Shown piece by piece: positions 33,746 to 47,993 of a stretch of 64,000 nt of DNA (its first letter is position 1; every line of letters begins with the position of its first letter). The notes below the pieces were generated by a model that saw only the letters and a list, made by a program, of their open reading frames with translations, ran no database searches and was not told where the DNA came from. This DNA comes from Bacteroidota bacterium (GTDB taxonomy: Bacteria > Bacteroidota > Ignavibacteria > Ignavibacteriales > Ignavibacteriaceae), in NCBI GenBank assembly GCA_021815405.1, contig JAKAGV010000009.1:124001-188000 (forward strand). Direction: 5' to 3'. The position numbers and the translations under genes are program-made.

Positions 33746-36700
33746 ATGAAAGCAAGCGACCTAACAAAGGAACAGAAAGAAGAACTTGAAAAATTTGGTG
33801 CTAACACGTGGTTTGTTGAATACCTGCATAAGCAATACGAAGAGGATCCGGCTGAGGTTTCCGAACAGTGGCAGAACTTTTTCGGAAAAGTAACACCTAA
33901 GGAAAACGGCAACGGCAAATCCAACTTAGCTTCTGTACCGAAAAATCATCAATCAATTACCGGCATGCCTGCTGTAAGGGAGGATATTCCCATGCCGGTT
34001 CCCGGTGAGGATGACCGCGTTCAGATAATAGCCGGAAGCTCTGCAAAAATTTTAGATAACATGAGCAGCAGCCTTACAATTCCTGTTGCTACTTCTCAAA
34101 GAACTATTCCGGTTAAACTGCTTGAGGAAAATCGCTCGCTGATAAACAATTATCTCCAGAAAAAGAATCTTGGTAAAATTTCTTTTACTCATTTAATTGC
34201 CTGGGCAATAGTAAAAGCAGTTACTACCAATCCTTCTATGAATAATGCTTTTACCTTTATAAACGGAAGACCGAACGTTATAAAGAGAAGTAAAATTAAT
34301 CTTGGTCTTGCAATTGATATAGAGAAGAAAGACGGAAGCCGCTCGCTTATAGTGCCAAATATTAAAAGTGCTAACATAATGTCGTTTGAGGAATTTTATA
34401 AAGCCTATGACGATCTCGTAGCCCGCTCCCGCAAAGGTTTGATTGATCCGGCGGAATTTTTGGAAACGACCATTACATTAACTAATCCAGGCACTATCGG
34501 AACAGTAAGCTCCGTTCCAAGATTAATGCTGGGGCAAGGAACAATTGTTGCGACCGGTGCAATCCAATATCCCGCCGAATACCAGGCAATGTCGCCTTCA
34601 ACTATTTCTACACTTGGAATCAGTAAGGTAATGAACATTACCAGCACTTACGATCACCGCATTATTCAAGGTGCAGAGTCAGGTTTGTTCCTAAAAGAAA
34701 TTCATGATCTTCTTTTAGGCAGTAACTTTTTCTATGAAGAAATTTTTGAAGATTTAAAAATTCCGGCACAGCCGCTTACATGGAAAACCGATTACCAGCC
34801 CGCTACAATGGCAAAGGGAGGAAGCACCGAAGAATTTGAAAAGCAAGGAAGAGTACTTCAGCTAATAAATCTTTACCGGGTTCGAGGTCATTTAATTGCA
34901 GACCTCGATCCAATCGGCTCTCCAACACCTTATCATCCCGAATTAGACCCGGCTACTTACAAGTTAACTTTATGGGATCTTGATAGAGAATTTATTACAG
35001 GCGGCTTCAGCGGATTACGGACTGCAACTCTGAGAGAAATCCTAAACATACTCCAGAAAACTTATTGCGATAAGATTGGCGTTGAATACATGCATATTCA
35101 AAATCCCGCAGAGAAGATATGGCTTCAAAATAAAATGGAACCGGTGAAGAATATTCCCAACTTTAACCTTGAAATAAAACGTACAATATTAAACAAACTA
35201 ATTATTGCGGAAACATTTGAGCATTTTATTCATAATAAATTTATCGGTCATAAAAGATTTTCACTTGAAGGGTCCGAAACTTTGATTCCGGTATTAGACG
35301 CTTTATTAAATGATGCAAGCGATAATGAAATTCTCGAAGTAGTTCTCGGTATGGCTCACCGCGGAAGACTTAACGTACTTTGTAATATTATCGGCAAGTC
35401 TTACGAATCAATCTTCTCTGAGTTTGAAGATATTCCCGATCTAAATTCAATTGAAGGTTCCGGTGACGTAAAATATCACCTCGGCGCTGCAGGAAAATAC
35501 AAAACTCGTAACGGAAAAAGCATAACAGTTTCAGTAGCTTCTAATCCAAGTCATCTTGAATGGGTCGATCCGGTTGTGCAAGGTATAGTTAGAGCTAAGC
35601 AAAAAAGGCTTGGGGATAAAGAGCACAAAAAAATATTAGCGGTATTAATACACGGAGACGCAGCTTTTGCCGGACAGGGTGTGGTTGCGGAAACTCTCAA
35701 TCTTTCCCAGCTAAAAGGTTATCGTACCGGTGGAACAATACATATAATAATAAATAATCAAATTGGATTTACAACTACTCCTGAAGATGCTCGTTCTTCT
35801 CAGTACGCAACCGATGTTGCAAAGATGATTCAAGCACCAATATTCCATGTAAATGGTGAAGATCCTGAAGCTGCATTATGGGTAACAAAGATTGCACTCG
35901 AGTACCGGCAGCTTTTTAAGAAGGATATTGTTATTGATATGTTCGGTTTTAGAAGACATGGTCATAACGAAGGCGATGAACCCGGTTTTACTCAACCGCT
36001 GCTTTATGAGAAAATTAAAAATCATCCTTCGGTAAGAGAAACTTATTCTAAGATGCTTTTAGAAAGTAAAGCTCTTCATTCTGATGAAATAAATCAGATG
36101 AATTCTGAAATTTATAATCAGCTCAACGAAGCATTTGAAAAGACCAAAAGAAAAAGTATAGAGTTCAAAGCCGACGCACCACTTGCTGTTTCAAAGGAAA
36201 AAATTGAAGCTGCAACTCCCGTTAGAGATACCGGAGTTTCGGAAGAAGATATGAAAAAGATTTTACTTGGAATAACAAAAGTTCCGAAAGAGTTTTCAGT
36301 CCATCCGAAATTGAAAAAGTTTCTAGAAAAAAGATTAGACCTAATTGATGACAAGATACAAGCTGATTGGGCTTTGGCGGAATCTCTTGCTTTCGGCAGT
36401 TTGCTTCTTGAAGGTACACCGGTAAGATTAAGCGGTCAGGATAGTGTGCGCGGTACTTTTAGTCAGAGACATCTTGCATTAACAGATATTCATTCCGGTG
36501 CTGAATATGTTTCCTTAAATCATATTTCTCAAAGCCAGGCAAAGATAGAAGCGCTGGACAGTCTTCTCTCTGAAGCAGCAGTACTCGGCTTTGAATACGG
36601 CTACAGTACTGCTGATCCGCTTGCGCTTGTTATCTGGGAAGCGCAGTTCGGAGATTTTTCTAACGGCGCTCAAATTATTATTGATAATTTTATTGCTGCA

Positions 36701-37390
36701 TCTTATGAAAAATGGAAACTGCCCAACAGCACTGTCATGCTTCTGCCTCATGGTTTCGAAGGTCAAGGCGCCGAACATTCAAGTGCAAGACTCGAAAGAT
36801 TTTTAACTCTTTGCGCGAAGGATAATATGCAGGTTTGCAACGTGACAACTCCTGCCCAATATTTTCATCTGCTCAGGAGACAAATAAAACGCAGAATGAT
36901 GAAACCGCTAATAATAATGACTCCTAAGAGTCTGCTTCGTCTTCATGAAGCCCAATCTCCAAAGGAGGAGTTTATTAACGGCTGGTTCAATGAAGTAATA
37001 GACGATAAGACAATTGAGAAAAAAGATTCAGTGTCAAGAATAATTTTATGCAGCGGTAAGGTTTATTATGATTTATTAAGGTACCGCGCTGAGCAAAAAA
37101 TAAATGATACCGCTATAATTAGGTTTGAACAGCTTTATCCTTATATGTCTGGTAAAATAAAAGAAATTTTATCATCCTATGTAAAAGCTAAAAATGTTAT
37201 TTGGGTCCAGGAAGAACCGAAGAATATGGGTGCCTGGGGATTCCTTGTTCCTAGATTGCTTGAAGACCTTGCGGAAGGTCAGAGATTAAGATATGCTGGT
37301 AGACCTGAAAGTCCGAGTCCGGCTGTAGGATCGCATAAAATATCCGAAAGCCAGCAGAAGGAATTAGTAAAGCTAGCCTTCAGCGAATAA
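33746..37390 (+). CDS. kgd: KGD-type 2-oxoglutarate decarboxylase/dehydrogenase with fused E2 acyltransferase domain
   Basis: This 1214-residue protein has the actinobacterial Kgd/OdhA layout. Residues 1-50 are the E1o N-terminal helix segment (NTWFVEYLHKQYEEDP). About 85-330 is an E2 succinyltransferase catalytic domain without lipoyl domain, with the active-site pattern TYDHRIIQGAESG (H304). From about 355 on is the thiamine-diphosphate E1 with HRGRLNVL, GDAAFAGQG near 636 and RRHGHNEGDEP. It converts 2-oxoglutarate to succinyl-CoA with a lipoylated E2 and E3 supplied elsewhere, or to succinate semialdehyde alone. A length near 1220 matches mycobacterial Kgd. AGGG precedes the ATG. Confidence 0.96.
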   Translation: MKASDLTKEQKEELEKFGANTWFVEYLHKQYEEDPAEVSEQWQNFFGKVTPKENGNGKSNLASVPKNHQSITGMPAVREDIPMPVPGEDDRVQIIAGSSAKILDNMSSSLTIPVATSQRTIPVKLLEENRSLINNYLQKKNLGKISFTHLIAWAIVKAVTTNPSMNNAFTFINGRPNVIKRSKINLGLAIDIEKKDGSRSLIVPNIKSANIMSFEEFYKAYDDLVARSRKGLIDPAEFLETTITLTNPGTIGTVSSVPRLMLGQGTIVATGAIQYPAEYQAMSPSTISTLGISKVMNITSTYDHRIIQGAESGLFLKEIHDLLLGSNFFYEEIFEDLKIPAQPLTWKTDYQPATMAKGGSTEEFEKQGRVLQLINLYRVRGHLIADLDPIGSPTPYHPELDPATYKLTLWDLDREFITGGFSGLRTATLREILNILQKTYCDKIGVEYMHIQNPAEKIWLQNKMEPVKNIPNFNLEIKRTILNKLIIAETFEHFIHNKFIGHKRFSLEGSETLIPVLDALLNDASDNEILEVVLGMAHRGRLNVLCNIIGKSYESIFSEFEDIPDLNSIEGSGDVKYHLGAAGKYKTRNGKSITVSVASNPSHLEWVDPVVQGIVRAKQKRLGDKEHKKILAVLIHGDAAFAGQGVVAETLNLSQLKGYRTGGTIHIIINNQIGFTTTPEDARSSQYATDVAKMIQAPIFHVNGEDPEAALWVTKIALEYRQLFKKDIVIDMFGFRRHGHNEGDEPGFTQPLLYEKIKNHPSVRETYSKMLLESKALHSDEINQMNSEIYNQLNEAFEKTKRKSIEFKADAPLAVSKEKIEAATPVRDTGVSEEDMKKILLGITKVPKEFSVHPKLKKFLEKRLDLIDDKIQADWALAESLAFGSLLLEGTPVRLSGQDSVRGTFSQRHLALTDIHSGAEYVSLNHISQSQAKIEALDSLLSEAAVLGFEYGYSTADPLALVIWEAQFGDFSNGAQIIIDNFIAASYEKWKLPNSTVMLLPHGFEGQGAEHSSARLERFLTLCAKDNMQVCNVTTPAQYFHLLRRQIKRRMMKPLIIMTPKSLLRLHEAQSPKEEFINGWFNEVIDDKTIEKKDSVSRIILCSGKVYYDLLRYRAEQKINDTAIIRFEQLYPYMSGKIKEILSSYVKAKNVIWVQEEPKNMGAWGFLVPRLLEDLAEGQRLRYAGRPESPSPAVGSHKISESQQKELVKLAFSE

Positions 37391-37453: not shown

Positions 37454-37526
37454 GCGAGCGTAACTCAGTTGGCAGAGTGTCAGCTTCCCAAGCTGAATGT
37501 CGCGGGTTCGAACCCCGTCGCTCGCT
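37454..37526 (+). tRNA. tRNA-Gly (anticodon CCC)
   Basis: The acceptor GCGAGCG pairs fully with CGCTCGC. The anticodon stem TCAGC/GCTGA holds TTCCCAA, giving anticodon CCC for GGG glycine codons. The T arm GCGGG-TTCGAAC-CCCGT closes with one wobble pair. The discriminator is T and no CCA is encoded. Confidence 0.96.
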
Positions 37527-37533
37527 CTAGGGC

Positions 37534-37620: not shown

Positions 37621-39903
37621 TCAATTAAAATTCTCAGCTATCTTATTCCTTATAACGTATAGGCAAACATGCTTTGCGCCTTCAGTAGAATAATTAAATT
37701 TAGAGATTAGATTCTGAATTAGAAACGTCACTTCTTCCTTTGTGCGGTTATCATAGACTTCAAATTTGGAAGTTCCATATTCTTTAATAGCCGCCTCAAA
37801 AGCAGGGAACTCGAGGAACGGCTGGAAGATATGCTCTCTCAAATTATTAATATAAGTCGAATAAAGATCCTTATAAATTTCAGTACCTGTAATATCATCT
37901 TCTTCCGTCATCTGCTGAATATTTACACCGAGCATTGTCGCGGTCTCTTCGCGATATTTTTTCTTAGCTCTTGCAGTAACTTCATTAGGCAGTAAATATT
38001 GTTCTATCGAGTTAAAGAATTGCTCGGTAATTTCAATCTTCTCCTTAGTGTATGGGCATATTAGTGTTTCACCAAAATCATAATTTGATGCAAACAAATA
38101 ATTCTGAATGTCTTTGCTTATCCGTTCTTCATTCTGATGGAATAGAGATTCTTTTATTTCTTCCATGATGTTATAGTTGTAAAGACGAATTACAGAGTCA
38201 ATAAAGCCTTTCGGAATTCTCTCATTATACTGTTCATGTTTTTTAAAAAACTTACGGATGTCTTCCATTGTAACTTGAAGCTCTTCCGGAGTACCGTTCT
38301 CTACTTGCTTCCGTGGTATCGAGTTATAGAATTCATTAAAAATATAAATAGATTCTCTTCCGCTGAAACCTGTCTTCCCTTCCTTATCTGATTCTCTTAT
38401 TATTTTTCTGCGGACATTCTTGTTAAAATTTTTATAGTCCTCATCGGTCAGCCAATCAGGAATTTTATTAGAATAAATCGACAGCTTAAGCAGAAGCATA
38501 TTTTCATCGCAGTAGTCCGCATAAATAGATGGATCCTCGATCCATTCTGAAATTGCCGGCGAATTTATATTTAGGCGGGAACTAATGATTATCTTTGCAA
38601 AATTTTCCAGCACTCCGGGAAGGAAGTGATTATTGATTTGCATCCCAAAAGAATGATAGTAAATTTTTACCTCTTCGGTATAATTAAGAATATAGTTTAC
38701 ATTGATTTCAATTATCCGGTCCTTGAAAGAATCTAACGAAACAATTTTCTGCTTATCTTCAGGATTCATTACAGAAAAGAAAAGTGAATTTACATTTTCT
38801 TCAATGTCTCCAATTTTATGCACACCTTCGCTGATAATTCCGTGAAGGTTAAGAAAGCGTTTTTCGTTCTCGCCTTTCACATCCATTATTGCAAATACAC
38901 CATTGTTAGTTTTTGCGTAACGTGAAAATACATACTGAATAAGATTGCTGTTACGAAACCTTAAGCTAAGCTGCCTCTGGAGCTCTTCATTTGTAAAGAA
39001 TAAACTTTCAGGCTCTTTATCGGCGGCATTAAAAACGCTTATTCCATAGCCAAGTCTTCTGTTGAAAGTGTAGCGCTTGGCAAACAGCATGTCAAATACT
39101 TCTGCCGGAGACCGTAAACGATTTATAAGAGCATCATAAAGCGACGTACAAATTGTGCACGCATTTTCTGTAAACAACCATTCATATTCTTTTTTGTAAA
39201 AGATTTTAAGCCGTGAATTATCTTTTACAAGTTTTTCAAGAATTTCCGCCCGGTATTCTTTCGGTATAATCAACACCGGATGATCGTGGCTTGGGCATGG
39301 CACTTCAAGTACATCTGAATTATTTAAATTCTGAGGCTTTATTAATGAACCTTTGTTAATATAATATTCTTCTATTGCTTCTTTTACCAGCGGAGAAAGT
39401 GAGTTGCCGATCTTTTGATGATCGAGCCTCCAAAGGACTTCGTAATTAATTCCTTCATGACTGTGTGTGAATTCTTCAAATCTTCTTAAAAGATTATTTA
39501 GAAAAGTGCTCTTGCCGCTGCCGGGAGGTCCGATAAAAACATAAATCTTATTCTGCTGAGTTCCTTCCCGAAAAGAATCGGCTAATCGGATAAGTCTGTT
39601 GGCAAGCGGGAGGTCTGTAAAGAATGGTGTATCGGTATTTTCAACAAACAGTCTTTCGCAATTAACTGTTTTGTAACTGATACTTTCCGGGTCGTCCTTA
39701 TATTCGTCTTCAATATCAATATAATGATAAACCATATCGCTGAATAACTGGAAGACGTTTCTGAAATAAAGCAGAGGGTCTTCCCGTGCTCTTGCCAAAA
39801 ACTCATGGAACGGAATTACCGATCCTTCATCCGATTTTTTTAGCTTTCGGTCAAGAAGATTTATAATATCGTGCGACTTATTGCCTGCGAATTTCGTTGT
39901 CAT
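37621..39903 (-). CDS. Second PrkA-family AAA+ ATPase / putative serine kinase
   Basis: The 760-residue protein has Walker A GPPGSGKS at 125-132 and conserved PrkA features after it: an SPLVKEAIEEYY segment, CPSHDHPVLIIPKEYR and a later CTIC pair that resemble the cysteine-containing insert of YeaG/PrkA proteins. The C-terminal half carries the PrkA kinase-like region with FYNSIPRK and NYNIMEEIKESLF. It is about 120 residues longer than E. coli YeaG. It is the last gene of the operon, 10 bases after the spoVR stop, with ACAGGAT before the ATG. It is clearly different in sequence from the PrkA at the operon head. Confidence 0.85.
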   Translation of the reverse strand: MTTKFAGNKSHDIINLLDRKLKKSDEGSVIPFHEFLARAREDPLLYFRNVFQLFSDMVYHYIDIEDEYKDDPESISYKTVNCERLFVENTDTPFFTDLPLANRLIRLADSFREGTQQNKIYVFIGPPGSGKSTFLNNLLRRFEEFTHSHEGINYEVLWRLDHQKIGNSLSPLVKEAIEEYYINKGSLIKPQNLNNSDVLEVPCPSHDHPVLIIPKEYRAEILEKLVKDNSRLKIFYKKEYEWLFTENACTICTSLYDALINRLRSPAEVFDMLFAKRYTFNRRLGYGISVFNAADKEPESLFFTNEELQRQLSLRFRNSNLIQYVFSRYAKTNNGVFAIMDVKGENEKRFLNLHGIISEGVHKIGDIEENVNSLFFSVMNPEDKQKIVSLDSFKDRIIEINVNYILNYTEEVKIYYHSFGMQINNHFLPGVLENFAKIIISSRLNINSPAISEWIEDPSIYADYCDENMLLLKLSIYSNKIPDWLTDEDYKNFNKNVRRKIIRESDKEGKTGFSGRESIYIFNEFYNSIPRKQVENGTPEELQVTMEDIRKFFKKHEQYNERIPKGFIDSVIRLYNYNIMEEIKESLFHQNEERISKDIQNYLFASNYDFGETLICPYTKEKIEITEQFFNSIEQYLLPNEVTARAKKKYREETATMLGVNIQQMTEEDDITGTEIYKDLYSTYINNLREHIFQPFLEFPAFEAAIKEYGTSKFEVYDNRTKEEVTFLIQNLISKFNYSTEGAKHVCLYVIRNKIAENFN

Positions 39904-39913
39904 TATAATCCTG

Positions 39914-41548
39914 TTAATTCAAGACTTCTTTTTTTACTTTCTTATTTTCTACCGAATACAAAACCTTTCTAAACATCTTCTCGCGCTGCCAGAAATCATC
40001 AGAGCTAATATTGTCTTCATCAAGTTTCATCTTATCCCAATCAAGCTCCATTGTTTCAAGATATACTTTATTTCCCCAGAGATATTCAATTCCAATTAAT
40101 GTATTTGGAATATAATCACGGTAAAGCTCTTTGCCTTCGAAGCGATGATTCAGATAAAGCGATCCATTCCGCTGCGTTGAAAATGTAATATAAGGCGGAT
40201 GATAAAGGCTGTTCAATATCATCGATTTGTAATCCTGTGCCTTTCGGCTCTTAACGTAATATTCACGTACATTTCTATCCGGATTTATCCGCTGCCCGAC
40301 AACCATCAGCTTATGCTTATCGATAAAATCCTGATCGATAAAAGTATTAAGAAAAGTTAGATCACAGTAATTTTCTCTTACGTGGAAAATAAAATCTCTT
40401 CCCTTTCCGGTTGAATCATTATAATTCTCCCGTTTATTAATGTCATCAAGTTTTCTAAAGTTATAAGAAAGCCTTCCCTTATCAGCCATCTCTTCAATGT
40501 ACATAAATAATCGCCAGCCGATTGCATAAGGATTTAATCCAACCTTTGAAATTGAAGTTACTTTTGCATTTACCTTTGCAAATGCAACTTCATGTCCGCG
40601 TATTCTTTCATCCATTAAAAAAAGTTTCTCATGCCAGTAGCTTGCCCAGCCTTCATTCATAATTTTAGTGCGTATCTGAGGAGAAAAATAGAGAGCCGTA
40701 TCCCGAATAATCGAGATTACTGTTTTCATCCAAATATTTTCGGGCTTATTCAAAAATGTGCTTTCATCAAAGATAAACTGAATTAGATCTTTAACTCCAT
40801 TTTGATGATTTTCTTCTTTATGCTTTCTGAATAGATCATCAAACTCAGGGTATTTCAAATAAATTTCCGTGAAGAAATTTTCTTCTTTTGATTTAGTTTC
40901 CGTCTCATCGGTTAAATTGTATCTTTCAATTTCTTCAAGATAATTCTGCATGCTGAACTGACTTCTATCCTGCAAAAAATGATTGAAATAAAAATCAATC
41001 TGTTCCGGCAGTTTAAACAAGTCTATATCATCTTTGTCTTTTAAGGAATCGAAATAACCGACAAGGTTATCAATGCCGCGTGTAAATTCAATTATGTAAT
41101 CAACAGCTCTTCCTTTCTGAGCATGCAGCTTGGAGATTATTCTCTTTTCAGTAAGAGCTTTCTCCTTAAAATCATAATCCCAGGTATGTTCAAAAAATTT
41201 GTTGTTCTGGAAGAAATCAATATGAGCAATTACATGATAAAAGATCATCACATTCATCCAGTCGGGATTCTCATTGTTATAAAACGAAATTGCCGGACGA
41301 GTGTTTATTACAGTCTCATAAGGATTATTCGGATAATACTCATACTCGCCTTTACTGCGTAAGACTTCTATTTCTTGAAGCCAGTAATCGTAAAGAGTTG
41401 GAATCATATTCTTTGGAGAAAGTTCGAGTAAATCAGTATTAGTAACCATATATTCAAGCGTAGCCTTATCGAACTTGAGCCCCGCATCCAGAGCGCGCTC
41501 CTTGCAGCCTTCCATTATTCGTTTAGTATGTTGATCTATTAATTCCAT
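39914..41548 (-). CDS. SpoVR/YcgB family protein
   Basis: This 544-residue SpoVR-like protein shows the family hallmarks: YYPNNPYETVINTRPAISFY region, HVIAHIDFFQNN, RTKIMNEGWASYWHEKLF with conserved E/W/H, GLNPYAIGWRLFMYIEE and a C-terminal Y-Y-V-K-S-R segment. Members are tied to sporulation cortex formation in Bacillus but are widespread in non-sporulating bacteria, nearly always next to PrkA and DUF444 genes; molecular function is unknown. It starts six bases after the DUF444 stop with GAGGAAG as ribosome site, implying tight co-translation. Confidence 0.95.
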   Translation of the reverse strand: MELIDQHTKRIMEGCKERALDAGLKFDKATLEYMVTNTDLLELSPKNMIPTLYDYWLQEIEVLRSKGEYEYYPNNPYETVINTRPAISFYNNENPDWMNVMIFYHVIAHIDFFQNNKFFEHTWDYDFKEKALTEKRIISKLHAQKGRAVDYIIEFTRGIDNLVGYFDSLKDKDDIDLFKLPEQIDFYFNHFLQDRSQFSMQNYLEEIERYNLTDETETKSKEENFFTEIYLKYPEFDDLFRKHKEENHQNGVKDLIQFIFDESTFLNKPENIWMKTVISIIRDTALYFSPQIRTKIMNEGWASYWHEKLFLMDERIRGHEVAFAKVNAKVTSISKVGLNPYAIGWRLFMYIEEMADKGRLSYNFRKLDDINKRENYNDSTGKGRDFIFHVRENYCDLTFLNTFIDQDFIDKHKLMVVGQRINPDRNVREYYVKSRKAQDYKSMILNSLYHPPYITFSTQRNGSLYLNHRFEGKELYRDYIPNTLIGIEYLWGNKVYLETMELDWDKMKLDEDNISSDDFWQREKMFRKVLYSVENKKVKKEVLN

Positions 41549-41554
41549 CTTCCT

Positions 41555-42919
41555 CTAACTAATTAAAAGCTTAATGCTCTGAATAATCCTATCTTCAGAA
41601 GCTTCTTCAGCTACAAAAGAATCGAGATGAAGAACATCAGGATATTTCTCAAGAAGCTTTGAATCCTTAATATAATTTTCTACAACAGTATCGTTTCTTG
41701 CCGAAGAATTGTTTTCGGCGATTGTAATTCCCACACGGCTTGCATACTTCAAAATTTTCTCAAGTTCTTTAACCGCTCGCATTTCGTCATCCTGCCAGTC
41801 GTCGCCGTCAGTTCCATGAAAAACGTAAATATTATAATCGCGTGCAAGATGTTCTTCCTCAACAATTTTATTTACAAGTTCGTATGCAGTGGATACATCA
41901 GTTCCTCCGGCAACTGACTTATTGAAATAAGTATAAAAATCGGGAACTTCTTGAGCCTCGGTATCATGAACAATAAACCTGCTTACGACCTGCTTCTTAT
42001 ATTGATATACAAGCCAGCTATTAATGTAAATATGCTGAGTTACTACAACCTCGGTCGGTTTTCCCTGCATAGAGCCTGAATAATCGCGCAGGAAAAAAAC
42101 TATAGCCTGAGATTCGAAATCTCTCTCGCGCGAAAGTATATGATAAATTCTATCATTAGGATTTATAATTAATTTAGTAGTATCCGGAGGCTCTTCTGTA
42201 GTTATGTTTCCTATGGCAAGATTTGTTTTAACTATCTGCTTTAATGTAGATTTCTTGTCCAGAATTTGCCCGTGACCGCGGTATTTATCTGTCAGCTCAT
42301 AAGAAAATTTTGTCAGTGAAGTCTTCTTTCCTTTTTCCTTGATGTTGGGAAGTTCAAATTGCTCGGTTAAAATCCGTCCGATTTCATATGCTTCCGCGCC
42401 CATTCCATGCTCTCCGCCTTTTCCCTGTCCAGCACCGGCTCCTTCACCTTCTTCATCGCGCAAAGGTTCTTCGCCAATAACTTCGCCTTCGGCTTCATCG
42501 CCGCTGCCGCCCGTCATTGAACCTTCGCCGCCGCTTGGCATTCCATTCCAATGGAAAAATTTTTCTTCACTCGTAGTTGGAACAATTATCGTTTTACCTT
42601 TACCATCTGGAGAAGGCTTTATAAGTTTTCCCAATTTAATCTTTCTTGGAAAACCGTCCTTCTCTCTAAGCTTGTCGCGCTCTAACAATTTATCGAGTGT
42701 GAATAATCTAGTCAAAGCATTTGAGTTAATAGAAAACTTTAATAAATGATCGGTATCCCTGAAATCATAAAATTCTAAATAATCCTTCGAGATATTCTTT
42801 AACAGAGATTGGTCATTGATTTCAGATTTAGTAAAAAGAAATTCTGCTTCACTTCCGGTATCTATTTTTGAATTATTTGTCTTCCCGGTATTACTACTTT
42901 TTTTTCCTTTGCCGTTCAT
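41555..42919 (-). CDS. DUF444 (YeaH/YhbH) VWA-like protein
   Basis: The 454-residue protein has a low-complexity glycine/glutamate-rich linker (about 130-175) between a helical N-terminus and a von Willebrand A-like domain. The metal-ion-dependent adhesion site is visible: DYSGSM near residue 280, GGTDVSTA and GTDGDDW. YeaH/YhbH proteins work with PrkA/YeaG in stress and nutrient-limitation responses. The order PrkA, DUF444, SpoVR is conserved widely; here the three genes and one more are packed on the minus strand. Confidence 0.95.
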   Translation of the reverse strand: MNGKGKKSSNTGKTNNSKIDTGSEAEFLFTKSEINDQSLLKNISKDYLEFYDFRDTDHLLKFSINSNALTRLFTLDKLLERDKLREKDGFPRKIKLGKLIKPSPDGKGKTIIVPTTSEEKFFHWNGMPSGGEGSMTGGSGDEAEGEVIGEEPLRDEEGEGAGAGQGKGGEHGMGAEAYEIGRILTEQFELPNIKEKGKKTSLTKFSYELTDKYRGHGQILDKKSTLKQIVKTNLAIGNITTEEPPDTTKLIINPNDRIYHILSRERDFESQAIVFFLRDYSGSMQGKPTEVVVTQHIYINSWLVYQYKKQVVSRFIVHDTEAQEVPDFYTYFNKSVAGGTDVSTAYELVNKIVEEEHLARDYNIYVFHGTDGDDWQDDEMRAVKELEKILKYASRVGITIAENNSSARNDTVVENYIKDSKLLEKYPDVLHLDSFVAEEASEDRIIQSIKLLIS

Positions 42920-43039
42920 TGCTGTACTTTAAACTTTTTATTACCTAAATAAATGTGAATTGGGTATTGAAATGTTCAATTACCAACCGCAATATTCAAT
43001 TTTCAATCGACTCTAACCTCTAATATTACAAGATTAGAT

Positions 43040-45103
43040 TTATGACTGATGATCCTGTGTGCAGAAGAACTCAATCGTCTTTTGAGCACATGTAGTACAA
43101 TATCCTAATTTATTTTTCATTGTTGATACAATCCGATTATAAAGCTTTTCGTTGTCTTCATTAGTACGGTTAGCAAGTGCACCTACTAATCCGCCGGCAG
43201 AAGCAATATCGGAATTCAGCCTTGTATCTGTTACGGCTTTAACCAGGTCAACATTATCCATAAAATCATAGTTCTTGTCTGTCTGAAGCCGCTGAGCATA
43301 AATTTTTCTAATCTGACCTCTAAATGATTCCTTCTGTTCTTGTGTTTTCATTTCAAGTTCATTCTCAACTGCACTGACAAAACGCTCATCAATTTTTATC
43401 GGCTGCATCTTTTTAGTTTGAGGATCGCGGTAAGTTATAATTTTATCCGGTCCCAGATCAGAACGACCCATGCCGACAATCATGTTTACGTACATCATTA
43501 CATCTTTTTTAATTGCTTCCGGTTCATCCATAAACGCATTAAACATTTCTGTTCTAATTCTCTTTCGATATAAATCCTTTGCAATCTTCAGGTCCTCAAA
43601 ATATTTTGCTCGTTCATTATTATCTTGAACATAATCAAGAATAACTTCCTCAGCAGCTTTGAATATATTCAAGGTGAACATACACTTGCCCTCATTGGTC
43701 TCTGAATAGCCACGTTGAGTGTTAATCATTCTTGCCAGATCGCGCTGTCCTAATCCTTTCTGTCCAAAACGTTTTGTTGTGTCGGATTCATGCTCAAGCT
43801 GATCGACAATCTCAGCTAATGTCTTTACACTCTTTTCACCAGCAACCTCACCTGCGGCAAGCTTCATCATTTCTATTGGAGTTAACTTGTCATCTGAACG
43901 TGGTAGACGGGTTAGAGTTACGATCACTGAAAGAGTGTAAGTTAAATTCGGATCAATGTGAAGTTTTTCTCCCATGAAAGTAGTCTTATCGCCTTCACCA
44001 AGTGCATACTTGGTTAAGTCTTCCTGAAGTTTGTAGTTGGTATTATGTGCAACATAACAAAATTTGCACCTATCCAGAATTGGCTTCTCTTCATCATTTG
44101 CTCTGTAGTTTTGAACGTCAGCATTGTTACTTGTTGCAATAATTAAAGTATCAATCGGCCATTTGAAAGCATCGATTTCAATTACTCGATTTTGAACGAC
44201 GCCGAGATATATTTTAAGCAGGTCAGTTTTATTCTTAAATATTTCATCCGCAAAGTGAATACCACCGCCACCTACTCTAGCCAATGCTCCTCGCCGTAAA
44301 TCAAACCTGTAAGGATTATTTGAGTTCGTAATGTGCAGAAGACGCTGGATGCTTTCTTCTCCGACAAGGTCAACACCGCTGCTGGTTAGTTTATCCTTTG
44401 CAGGATATTTACCTGTAATTGTTCCGAGTGTCTCGCTGATCGGCACCTTAACAATATCGATAGCTTCTTTTATTTTTTCAACATCACCATCGTAATAAGC
44501 TTTTAGATCGTTTAAAATAAATTCAGTATCTGCACCGAGTGAACGGTAATTTCTATAAAGGTCATCAATTTCATAATCAGTGAATCCATTAAGTATTAAA
44601 TATTCCTGGTTTTCTTCTTTTTTATTGAAGAGGTTCATCATCAAAATCATCGGATCTTCATAAGTCTGAGATTCGATTACTCTAATTTTCCCATAGCCGT
44701 CGAGGTCATCAGGTAAATTAAAACGGAATGTATATTTATTGTTCTCAGGAATGGAGATAAATTTTCTGTACATCACGGAAAGATAATCAACAAAGAAAGT
44801 TTTTCCGTTTCCTGGTTCGCCAACTAAAACAAATGCCATCTCTTTGCTTTCACCATTCTCAGCAGCATCTTTAATAAAGGCAACAAACTTATTAATAACA
44901 TCAAACAAGCCGATGATATGTTTCTTGCCCATCCTGAACTGAAGAAAGTCATAAGTATTTTTCCCGTTCACGATAACCGGTTTAATAAAGCTGGAATCAT
45001 TGAAAAGCATTCTTGCCAAAGATTCAAAAATATTTTCAAAATGATGCTGACCTTCTTTAAGTTCTTTAAGATATGAATCGATTGATTTGCCATTATTGTT
45101 CAT
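43040..45103 (-). CDS. prkA: PrkA-family AAA+ ATPase / serine protein kinase (YeaG-like)
   Basis: I start at the ATG at 45103, where GGAGG lies six bases upstream, giving 687 residues; an ATG six codons earlier lacks a ribosome site. Walker A is GEPGNGKT at 95-102. ALARVGGGGIHFADEIFKNK and TLIIATSNNADVQNY match the AAA core of PrkA. The C-terminal kinase-like half carries YVNMIVGMGRSDLG and ends in a cysteine cluster (YCTTC then FFC). PrkA/YeaG proteins phosphorylate serine targets and set stress responses; some have been assigned protease activity in Bacillus, so biochemistry is unsettled. Head gene of the DUF444/SpoVR/PrkA2 operon. Confidence 0.93.
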   Translation of the reverse strand: MNNNGKSIDSYLKELKEGQHHFENIFESLARMLFNDSSFIKPVIVNGKNTYDFLQFRMGKKHIIGLFDVINKFVAFIKDAAENGESKEMAFVLVGEPGNGKTFFVDYLSVMYRKFISIPENNKYTFRFNLPDDLDGYGKIRVIESQTYEDPMILMMNLFNKKEENQEYLILNGFTDYEIDDLYRNYRSLGADTEFILNDLKAYYDGDVEKIKEAIDIVKVPISETLGTITGKYPAKDKLTSSGVDLVGEESIQRLLHITNSNNPYRFDLRRGALARVGGGGIHFADEIFKNKTDLLKIYLGVVQNRVIEIDAFKWPIDTLIIATSNNADVQNYRANDEEKPILDRCKFCYVAHNTNYKLQEDLTKYALGEGDKTTFMGEKLHIDPNLTYTLSVIVTLTRLPRSDDKLTPIEMMKLAAGEVAGEKSVKTLAEIVDQLEHESDTTKRFGQKGLGQRDLARMINTQRGYSETNEGKCMFTLNIFKAAEEVILDYVQDNNERAKYFEDLKIAKDLYRKRIRTEMFNAFMDEPEAIKKDVMMYVNMIVGMGRSDLGPDKIITYRDPQTKKMQPIKIDERFVSAVENELEMKTQEQKESFRGQIRKIYAQRLQTDKNYDFMDNVDLVKAVTDTRLNSDIASAGGLVGALANRTNEDNEKLYNRIVSTMKNKLGYCTTCAQKTIEFFCTQDHQS

Positions 45104-45437
45104 AGAATTCCTCCACCCCATAACAAGGTAAATTTTCTTCAGTAATATAAATCGAAATATTTATTAACATATTATAAAATAAATTTTAGTTTATTTATTC
45201 CAATTTTCCAACGCAGAAATAGATACAGTCTTCAATCATCACTTTGGATAGAAATTTCATCTTATGTGCTGCAGGATAAGATAACATATTAACTTTCATC
45301 AAATTCTTGAGCTGAAAATAATATTTAGAAGACAGATTGATTTTGAAAAAATATCAATGCAAATGTTGATTTATTTTTTTCATAATTATTGTCTTAATTA
45401 AGATATTATTAAGTTTAGTTGCACACTTTGTTTTAAA
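45104..45437. other. Spacer without recognisable gene
   Basis: This 334-base AT-rich spacer must hold the PrkA operon promoter. I see no RNA gene, hairpin or TAnnTTTG box convincing enough to list. Confidence 0.4.
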
Positions 45438-47660: not shown

Positions 47661-47735
47661 GGGCGCTTAGCTCAGTTGGTTCAGAGCATCTGCCTTACAA
47701 GCAGAGGGTCGGAGGTTCGACTCCTTCAGCGCCCA
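47661..47735 (+). tRNA. tRNA-Val (anticodon TAC)
   Basis: The acceptor GGGCGCT pairs with AGCGCCC. The anticodon stem TCTGC/GCAGA holds CTTACAA, giving anticodon TAC for GTA and other valine codons. The T arm GGAGG-TTCGACT-CCTTC follows. The discriminator is A; no CCA is encoded. Confidence 0.97.
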
Positions 47736-47993
47736 CAAACTTCTCTAAAAATCCAAATAGAAAAATCTAGATTTCAAATTATCTGAGTGCAGATAAAAAC
47801 ATTTTAATGAGAGCCATCTCATCACTTTAACAAGTAATTTTTTCTTCTACAAGAAATTTTTACCGCACAATTTCTTATAAGTGATTTTAAATTGTTTCAA
47901 TCTTTAAGATTTATGAAATTATTACTTTTGGTACGATTTTGGAAGAATCATATATTCTTAGTGTTATAAAAAATCAAAAAAAAAAACGAATTC

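Follow-up and report, generated by a model that had tools for sequence, protein, structure and literature searches.

Why does a bacterium keep two PrkA-type ATPases beside one DUF444 protein and one SpoVR protein? The question is raised by a gene cassette from a Bacteroidota bacterium of the family Ignavibacteriaceae (assembly GCA_021815405.1, 4.97 Mb). It lies in a stretch of 64,000 nucleotides, positions 124,001 to 188,000 of contig JAKAGV010000009.1, hereafter called the window. The PrkA-DUF444-SpoVR combination is a common but poorly understood stress module. In the window it is extended to a cassette of four open reading frames, all on the minus strand from 45103 to 37621, and ATPases of 687 and 760 residues stand at the two ends. 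These two ATPases diverged long ago, are inherited together and take the place of the single PrkA of other genomes. At the sequence level the motifs of the 687-type are complete; the 760-type is devoid of the catalytic Glu but retains Walker A and a probable arginine finger. We consider it most likely, with moderate confidence, that in this four-gene variant the two co-inherited paralogues form one mixed AAA+ ring. The genes are:

43040 to 45103, minus strand: PrkA-type AAA+ ATPase A, 687 residues, predicted motor subunit (open reading frame; Pfam; orthologue first in the 57 complete loci described below)
41555 to 42919, minus strand: DUF444/YeaH-type VWA protein, 454 residues (PF04285; NF003712)
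39914 to 41548, minus strand: SpoVR-family protein, 544 residues (PF04293)
37621 to 39903, minus strand: PrkA-type AAA+ ATPase B, 760 residues, predicted to bind ATP and to be impaired in hydrolysis (open reading frame; Pfam; orthologue last in the 57 complete loci)

The intergenic gaps, read from ATPase A through DUF444 and SpoVR to ATPase B, are 120, 6 and 10 bp. This confirms the layout given in a preliminary description of the locus, which had reported the one-strand cluster, the two short gaps and the two terminal ATPases. For ATPase A the start at 45103 is favoured over an upstream ATG at 45121 because GGAGG is found six bases upstream.

Two remote members of the PrkA family

The 760-residue protein, like its partner, belongs to the PrkA family, as had been proposed. 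The C-terminal PrkA domain (PF06798) is recognised with 111 bits in the 687-residue and 132 bits in the 760-residue protein, the PrkA AAA domain (PF08298) with 50.8 and 30.2 bits, respectively (cut-off 25 in either case). Both PF08298 matches are partial, and the 760-residue protein covers just positions 296-352 of the 358 in this profile. Both domains are matched at E values up to 0.001 by 11/11 members of the order-level set of each protein. For E. coli YeaG the PF08298 score is 624 bits; therefore, both window ATPases are remote PrkA members. The PrkA equivalog of NCBIfam (NF011999, cut-off 576 bits) yields 29.7 bits with the 687-residue protein and is unmatched by the 760-residue protein at E up to 1. 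No chelatase or MoxR AAA+ family of Pfam was matched at E 0.001 by any of the 11 members of either set. Beyond PrkA only AAA_5 was detected, in 11/11 members of the 687-type (25.2 bits for the window protein). Among solved structures a single PrkA relative sequence was found (9xip/9xiq/9xir); for SpoVR and DUF444 no solved-structure relative was detected at E 0.01.

The two ATPases are highly dissimilar. Identity is about 15% across 638 aligned positions, the best BLASTP stretch between them comprises 54 residues with 28.5 bits, and two single PrkAs used for comparison are 15-20% identical to them. An IQ-TREE phylogeny of 57 rows separates the two types into one clade each (100/100 in both cases); its deeper branches are long and poorly supported, and IQ-TREE issues a warning that long branches meet. 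A recent duplication is ruled out by these clades together with the short BLASTP stretch and the low identity. The separate, fully supported clades also signify that the pair predates the spread of the cassette; one or several origins both fit. Constraining 687- and 760-types to one clade results in a slightly better likelihood and is not rejected (approximately unbiased (AU) test, p 0.515).

Joint inheritance and replacement of the single PrkA

The window genome was compared with 58 relatives. The 760-residue protein is present in 11 of these 59 genomes, the 687-residue protein in the same 11, and the other 10 cassette-bearing relatives have the four genes in the same order on one strand (10/10). 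A pattern scan of approximately 85,000 species genomes with the 760-type alignment as a query uncovered 97 relatives; the 80 best were retained, and these loci include some of the genomes of the 10 relatives. Fragments of a single gene were merged by position when gene order was scored. At 57 of the 80 loci the cassette is complete, with unchanged gene order on a single strand. At 19 loci fewer than 700 bases are available upstream of the first gene found, which we take as contig-end cuts. Four loci break the pattern (L053, L058, L076 and L109). In L053, from Desulfonema magnum, all four genes are kept in a dispersed form with the 687-type about 15.7 kb upstream; L109 comes from a genome that possesses a 687-type, apparently on a different contig; in the genome of L076 no 687-type was detected at E 1e-5. 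In complete loci the median intergenic gap is 15 bp and the largest 443 (171 gaps). Given the recurrence in 10/10 relatives and 57/80 loci, the four-gene arrangement exceeds chance. Together with the tree, these counts show an ancient pair conserved together, a point which the preliminary description had put forward for checking.

The hosts of the 80 loci belong to 11 named bacterial phyla and to DPANN archaea. According to the record titles, mostly of metagenome bins whose taxon labels may be wrong, Thermodesulfobacteriota contribute 37 loci, Bacteroidota 9, Ignavibacteriota 8, Fibrobacterota 5, Myxococcota 4 and Lentisphaerota 2; five more bacterial phyla (two of them candidate phyla) have one each, 3 are from Archaea (2 Woesearchaeota) and 7 are without a phylum name. 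The nearest named matches of the window genome are labelled Bacteroidetes, others Melioribacteraceae or Ignavibacteria. When the pairwise distances of the four proteins are compared across 50 complete loci, each of the six protein combinations is correlated (rho 0.77-0.86, a value reached in 0/500 permutations). This is expected for linked genes and by itself is no proof of interaction.

Which genes does the pair replace? In 20 pair-bearing genomes chosen from the 80 loci PF06798 identified the pair only (20/20); the four PF06798 genes of G241 constitute two tandem cassettes. In the phylum of the window the PrkA family is present in 6/198 genomes, five with two genes and one with a single gene. 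In the phylum of Desulfonema magnum 18/148 genomes are PrkA-bearing: nine have one high-scoring gene, one has two such genes on different contigs, six have the pair, one a broken-up pair and one a divergent pair, part of these genomes being classed from scores and open-frame lengths. No pair-bearing genome among these 18 has a further PrkA match. The family was further seen in 2/239 genomes from the phylum of a Yanofskybacteria bin and in 12/194 from the phylum of a Pacearchaeota bin.

The three-gene module, as in Thermomicrobium, Sinorhizobium and Legionella, consists of the same three families in the order PrkA-DUF444-SpoVR. It differs from the window cassette in having one PrkA in place of two; among single PrkAs the Walker B Glu is present in 15/15 and both of the Cys motifs discussed below in 11/15. 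In Rhizobium etli, prkA is described as the first of three genes in an operon, the other two encoding a VWA and a SpoVR-like protein (PMC3188799, in the portion available to us). In E. coli yeaG and yeaH are together and ycgB is elsewhere in the genome.

Other clusters with two PrkA genes exist, and they are not novel as such. In the accessible part of a report from 2011, two adjacent PrkA genes are always accompanied by DUF444 and SpoVR in all ten haloarchaea studied (PMC3102087); two-PrkA clusters are thus already in print. Compared with this description, and by description only, the window cassette differs in that its PrkA genes flank DUF444 and SpoVR. Our search of the open-licence PMC literature revealed no account of the four-gene order, how widely it occurs, or a split into a motor and an impaired subunit. 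The haloarchaeal report, the replacement of the single PrkA and the Walker B difference considered below are additions to the preliminary description.

Of the 12 PrkA-bearing genomes in the Pacearchaeota-bin phylum, four carry the pair of the window, two a cluster of type III, three one of type IV, two a single gene, and the remaining one two adjacent PrkA pieces at a contig end. Types III and IV are labels coined in this analysis. Type III is a second kind of four-gene cluster (G752 and G707 from this phylum and G278 from that of Desulfonema magnum). It shares with the window the order PrkA-DUF444-SpoVR-PrkA and, in 3/3 last copies, an Asp in place of the catalytic Glu as in the 760-type; it differs in that the first copies score as single-type PrkAs and in that G752 and G707 keep the Cys motifs in both copies. 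Type IV denotes two adjacent PrkA genes followed by DUF444 and SpoVR, an arrangement which G650, G674 and G730 show with very different sequences. L215, L216 and L219 display two adjacent PrkA-like genes, then DUF444 and SpoVR, as reported for haloarchaea, with a first-copy Walker A that terminates in GKN in L215 and L219. In the tree the last copies of type III are the neighbours of the 760-type (92/83, not starred). Constraining 760-types, last copies of type III and second copies of type IV to one clade is not rejected (AU p 0.469); a single origin of all second copies is thereby neither shown nor rejected.

A Deltaproteobacteria bin has two complete cassettes in tandem (L066, 3707-19002). 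Phage or viral spread was considered and rejected: a single-sequence search of viral_contigs, which reaches close relatives only, identified no 760-type relative, and the 687-type matches 7 Thermus phage records, annotated as serine kinase, at just 19-22% identity. In Thermus phage YS40_Isch (L163, 919-2769) SpoVR, a 616-residue unknown protein and PrkA are encoded in a row; the 616-residue protein had no match to the DUF444 models built here. A plasmid-borne cassette was also rejected, the one weak plasmid match per type being the single PrkA of Thermomicrobium. The same holds for a defence system: PADLOC reports weak matches for the 760-residue protein only (mad8 17.2 bits, mad3 13.0 bits), the remaining proteins of the cassette being unmatched.

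Divided motifs and a possible mixed ring

The motifs of the cassette proteins are given below. Counts refer to the sequences which cover the respective site; the 687-type set comprises 66 sequences including fragments, and the sets contain close relatives, i.e., the sequences are not independent.

44798 to 44821, minus strand: Walker A of the 687-residue ATPase, GEPGNGKT, residues 95-102; all positions identical in 60/60
44237 to 44260, minus strand: Walker B of the 687-residue ATPase, IHFADEIF, residues 282-289, Asp-Glu intact; Asp and Glu each in 61/61
43088 to 43099, minus strand: C-terminal CxxC of the 687-residue ATPase, residues 669-672; CxxC in the last 50 residues of 56/57 full-length orthologues
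42071 to 42085, 41900 to 41908 and 41798 to 41812, minus strand: DYSGS, GGT and TDGDD of the metal-ion-dependent adhesion site (MIDAS)-type motif of the DUF444 protein
41222 to 41236 and 40643 to 40657, minus strand: HVIAH and NEGWA of the SpoVR protein
39505 to 39531, minus strand: Walker A of the 760-residue ATPase, GPPGSGKST, residues 125-133; Lys and the next Ser in 85/85
39148 to 39297, minus strand: middle Cys/His motif of the 760-residue ATPase, CPSH at 39286-39297 and CTIC at 39148-39159; both in 84/85 full-length orthologues
38875 to 38892, minus strand: altered Walker B of the 760-residue ATPase, AIMDVK, residues 338-343; Asp for the catalytic Glu in 86/86

The differing Walker A contexts, GEPGNGKT and GPPGSGKST, had been noted before and are as described. 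In addition, the sensor Asn and the Arg of a DR motif are kept in 86/86 760-types; from general knowledge of AAA+ proteins we take this Arg to be an arginine finger. The position of the catalytic Glu is occupied by Glu in 15/15 single PrkAs, in 3/3 type III first copies and in 4/4 type IV first copies. Type IV second copies resemble the last copies of type III: Asp is found in this position or next to it, and Glu in neither (3/3).

A second division concerns cysteines. Of 15 single PrkAs, 11 possess a middle and a C-terminal CxxC motif, three proteobacterial ones have neither and a truncated one has the middle motif only. The middle CPxH-CxxC is present in 0/57 full-length 687-types. A CxxC in the last 50 residues is present in 6/85 full-length 760-types, in each case a little upstream of its usual position. 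The two Cys motifs of single PrkAs are split between the partners, the C-terminal one residing in the 687-type and the middle one in the 760-type. The motifs are divided in this way in two of three type IV clusters as well. An extra Cys pair, DRCxxC, directly follows the conserved Arg of the 687-type (44057-44074; 45/57 full-length orthologues); it was not seen in 15 aligned single PrkAs.

The DUF444 protein scores 121 bits with PF04285 and 606 bits with NF003712 of NCBIfam (cut-off 421); the MIDAS residues DxSxS and GGT are kept in 68/68 aligned orthologues. The SpoVR protein scores 192 bits with PF04293 (cut-off 27). In 15 SpoVR proteins compared, HV..H is present in 13 and NEG or HEG in 15, and these residues may constitute a metal site, which is a guess. 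We take them to resemble the metal site of HExxH peptidases without the catalytic Glu.

The combination of a motor-type subunit with one of altered Walker B, the divided Cys motifs and the intact MIDAS of DUF444 are the reasons why we favour a mixed ring. In such a ring the 687-residue protein would be the motor which binds and hydrolyses ATP. The 760-residue protein would bind ATP and present its arginine finger to the neighbour, yet, with Asp for the catalytic Glu, would hydrolyse ATP poorly or not at all and serve as a regulatory or coupling subunit. DUF444 may act as an adaptor between ring and target via its MIDAS-type VWA domain, and SpoVR as an effector or client-binding partner which possibly binds metal. 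The whole machine would thus follow a logic like that of the chelatase ChlI/ChlD/ChlH and of MoxR-VWA pairs. MoxR-VWA systems resemble the window system in logic. In magnesium chelatase, according to the sections of PMC6604950 at hand, ChlI is the motor, ChlD is an AAA+ protein for which no ATPase activity was observed and which is connected to ChlH by its VWA domain, and MIDAS mutants are inactive or about 5% active. The likeness, drawn from these sections, is one of logic only: an active AAA+ protein, a non-hydrolysing one, a VWA/MIDAS domain and a client-binding protein. Chelatase and MoxR systems belong to other families, and in the window the VWA domain resides on a separate protein. A role of the cassette in stress or starvation is suggested by relatives: yeaG-yeaH of E. 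coli acts in nitrogen starvation (PMC4664914, as far as the available text goes), and a Bacillus PrkA is required in sporulation and under osmotic stress (PMC13001217, available in part).

Alternatively, the two ATPases could build two separate homo-oligomeric machines which have one DUF444 and one SpoVR in common and act sequentially or under different signals. We regard this as unlikely, though not negligibly so. It accounts for the co-inheritance and for the single copies of DUF444 and SpoVR, and a single PrkA, one from Bacillus, forms oligomers upon ATP addition in the accessible part of PMC13001217. However, the Asp for the catalytic Glu in 86/86 760-types is odd for an independent motor, and the divided Cys motifs suggest joint work in one particle. 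The altered Walker B also speaks for a 760-residue protein outside the ring, a PrkA relative which caps, titrates or inhibits a ring of the 687-residue protein. The lower conservation of the 760-type (median identity 48% vs. 67% for the 687-type) agrees with this. Against it, no 760-type sequence covering these sites has lost the Walker A Lys, the sensor Asn or the Arg, as befits a subunit at a ring interface, and we hold this option to be improbable.

Several points weigh against a mixed ring. Two homo-oligomers would yield the very same co-inheritance. Aligned against each other with hhalign, the order-level profiles of the two types match weakly (63.6% probability, E 6.7e-5). AlphaFold2 models of both ATPases, built with 11 sequences per alignment, are too poor (mean predicted local distance difference test scores 55.8 and 38.7); a Foldseek search with the poor 760-residue model yielded nothing below E 0.15 and was disregarded. 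The Glu-to-Asp exchange may reduce rather than abolish hydrolysis. Further, 14/15 single PrkAs do not have the Asp just before the Glu; hence motifs alone cannot tell activity. The PrkAs of E. coli, Sinorhizobium and Legionella have neither Cys motif, both copies keep both motifs in G752, G707 and G674, and in G278 the first copy has the C-terminal motif only and the last copy neither. The division of Cys motifs is therefore not universal.

Are the two proteins serine/threonine kinases with different targets, as the annotation implies? The database name is 'PrkA family serine protein kinase'. In the portion of PMC4664914 available, E. coli YeaG is said to have in vitro kinase activity, a K426A mutation in the C-terminal domain fails to complement and the authors conclude that the kinase domain is needed. 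In an alignment that is uncertain at this low identity, the position of K426 is Lys or Arg in 20/20 687-types (Lys 2, Arg 18), yet Lys in just 8/20 760-types (Arg in 3/20) and in 5/15 single PrkAs. A Bacillus PrkA has no detectable kinase or protease activity, as stated in the available portion of PMC13001217. We consider two kinases very improbable. The preliminary description had pictured a hetero-oligomeric AAA+ machine in which the VWA protein and SpoVR are partners and had called the ATPases kinases. Such a machine fits the motif pattern; the term kinase is doubtful in view of the K426 residues and of the Bacillus PrkA.

A mixed ring would provide a natural separation of function, in which ATP turnover and contact with DUF444/SpoVR could be traced to one partner or the other through single changes in either of them, and would favour an AAA+/VWA remodelling machine over the old name of a kinase. 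Tentatively, and with less than even confidence, we suggest a widespread, cross-domain class of PrkA systems in which the ring is split into a motor subunit and one dead in hydrolysis, the metal-binding motifs of the two being complementary. Such an asymmetric, chelatase-like AAA+/VWA/SpoVR machine would replace the single-PrkA ring and be gained or lost as a four-gene block. A like division would exist in at least three arrangements, perhaps including the haloarchaeal one.

Genomic site of the cassette

Two tRNA genes flank the cassette:

37454 to 37527: tRNA-Gly(ccc)
47661 to 47736: tRNA-Val(tac)

They are 10,133 bp apart, and the cassette and a gene for a ClC-type channel are located between them. 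In the cassette-less congeners G004 and G009 the same tRNA pair is spaced by 102 and 85 bp, respectively, beside the same oxoglutarate dehydrogenase gene. This is an empty site. With the tRNA pair close-set there and far apart in the window, the segment was gained or lost here, in either direction. G007, G003 and G012 have the tRNA-Gly and dehydrogenase flank in common; in G008 the cassette is adjoined by tRNA-Asn instead. The six remoter relatives have flanking genes different from those of the window, low-identity matches aside. Promoter-like sites (32 vs. 26.7 in shuffles, standard deviation 5.2) and terminator-like sites (4 vs. 5.0, standard deviation 2.1) were uninformative. Adjoining the cassette on the opposite strand, positions 33746-37390 encode a fused oxoglutarate dehydrogenase-type protein of 1214 residues with, as judged by eye, an acyltransferase-like N-terminus.

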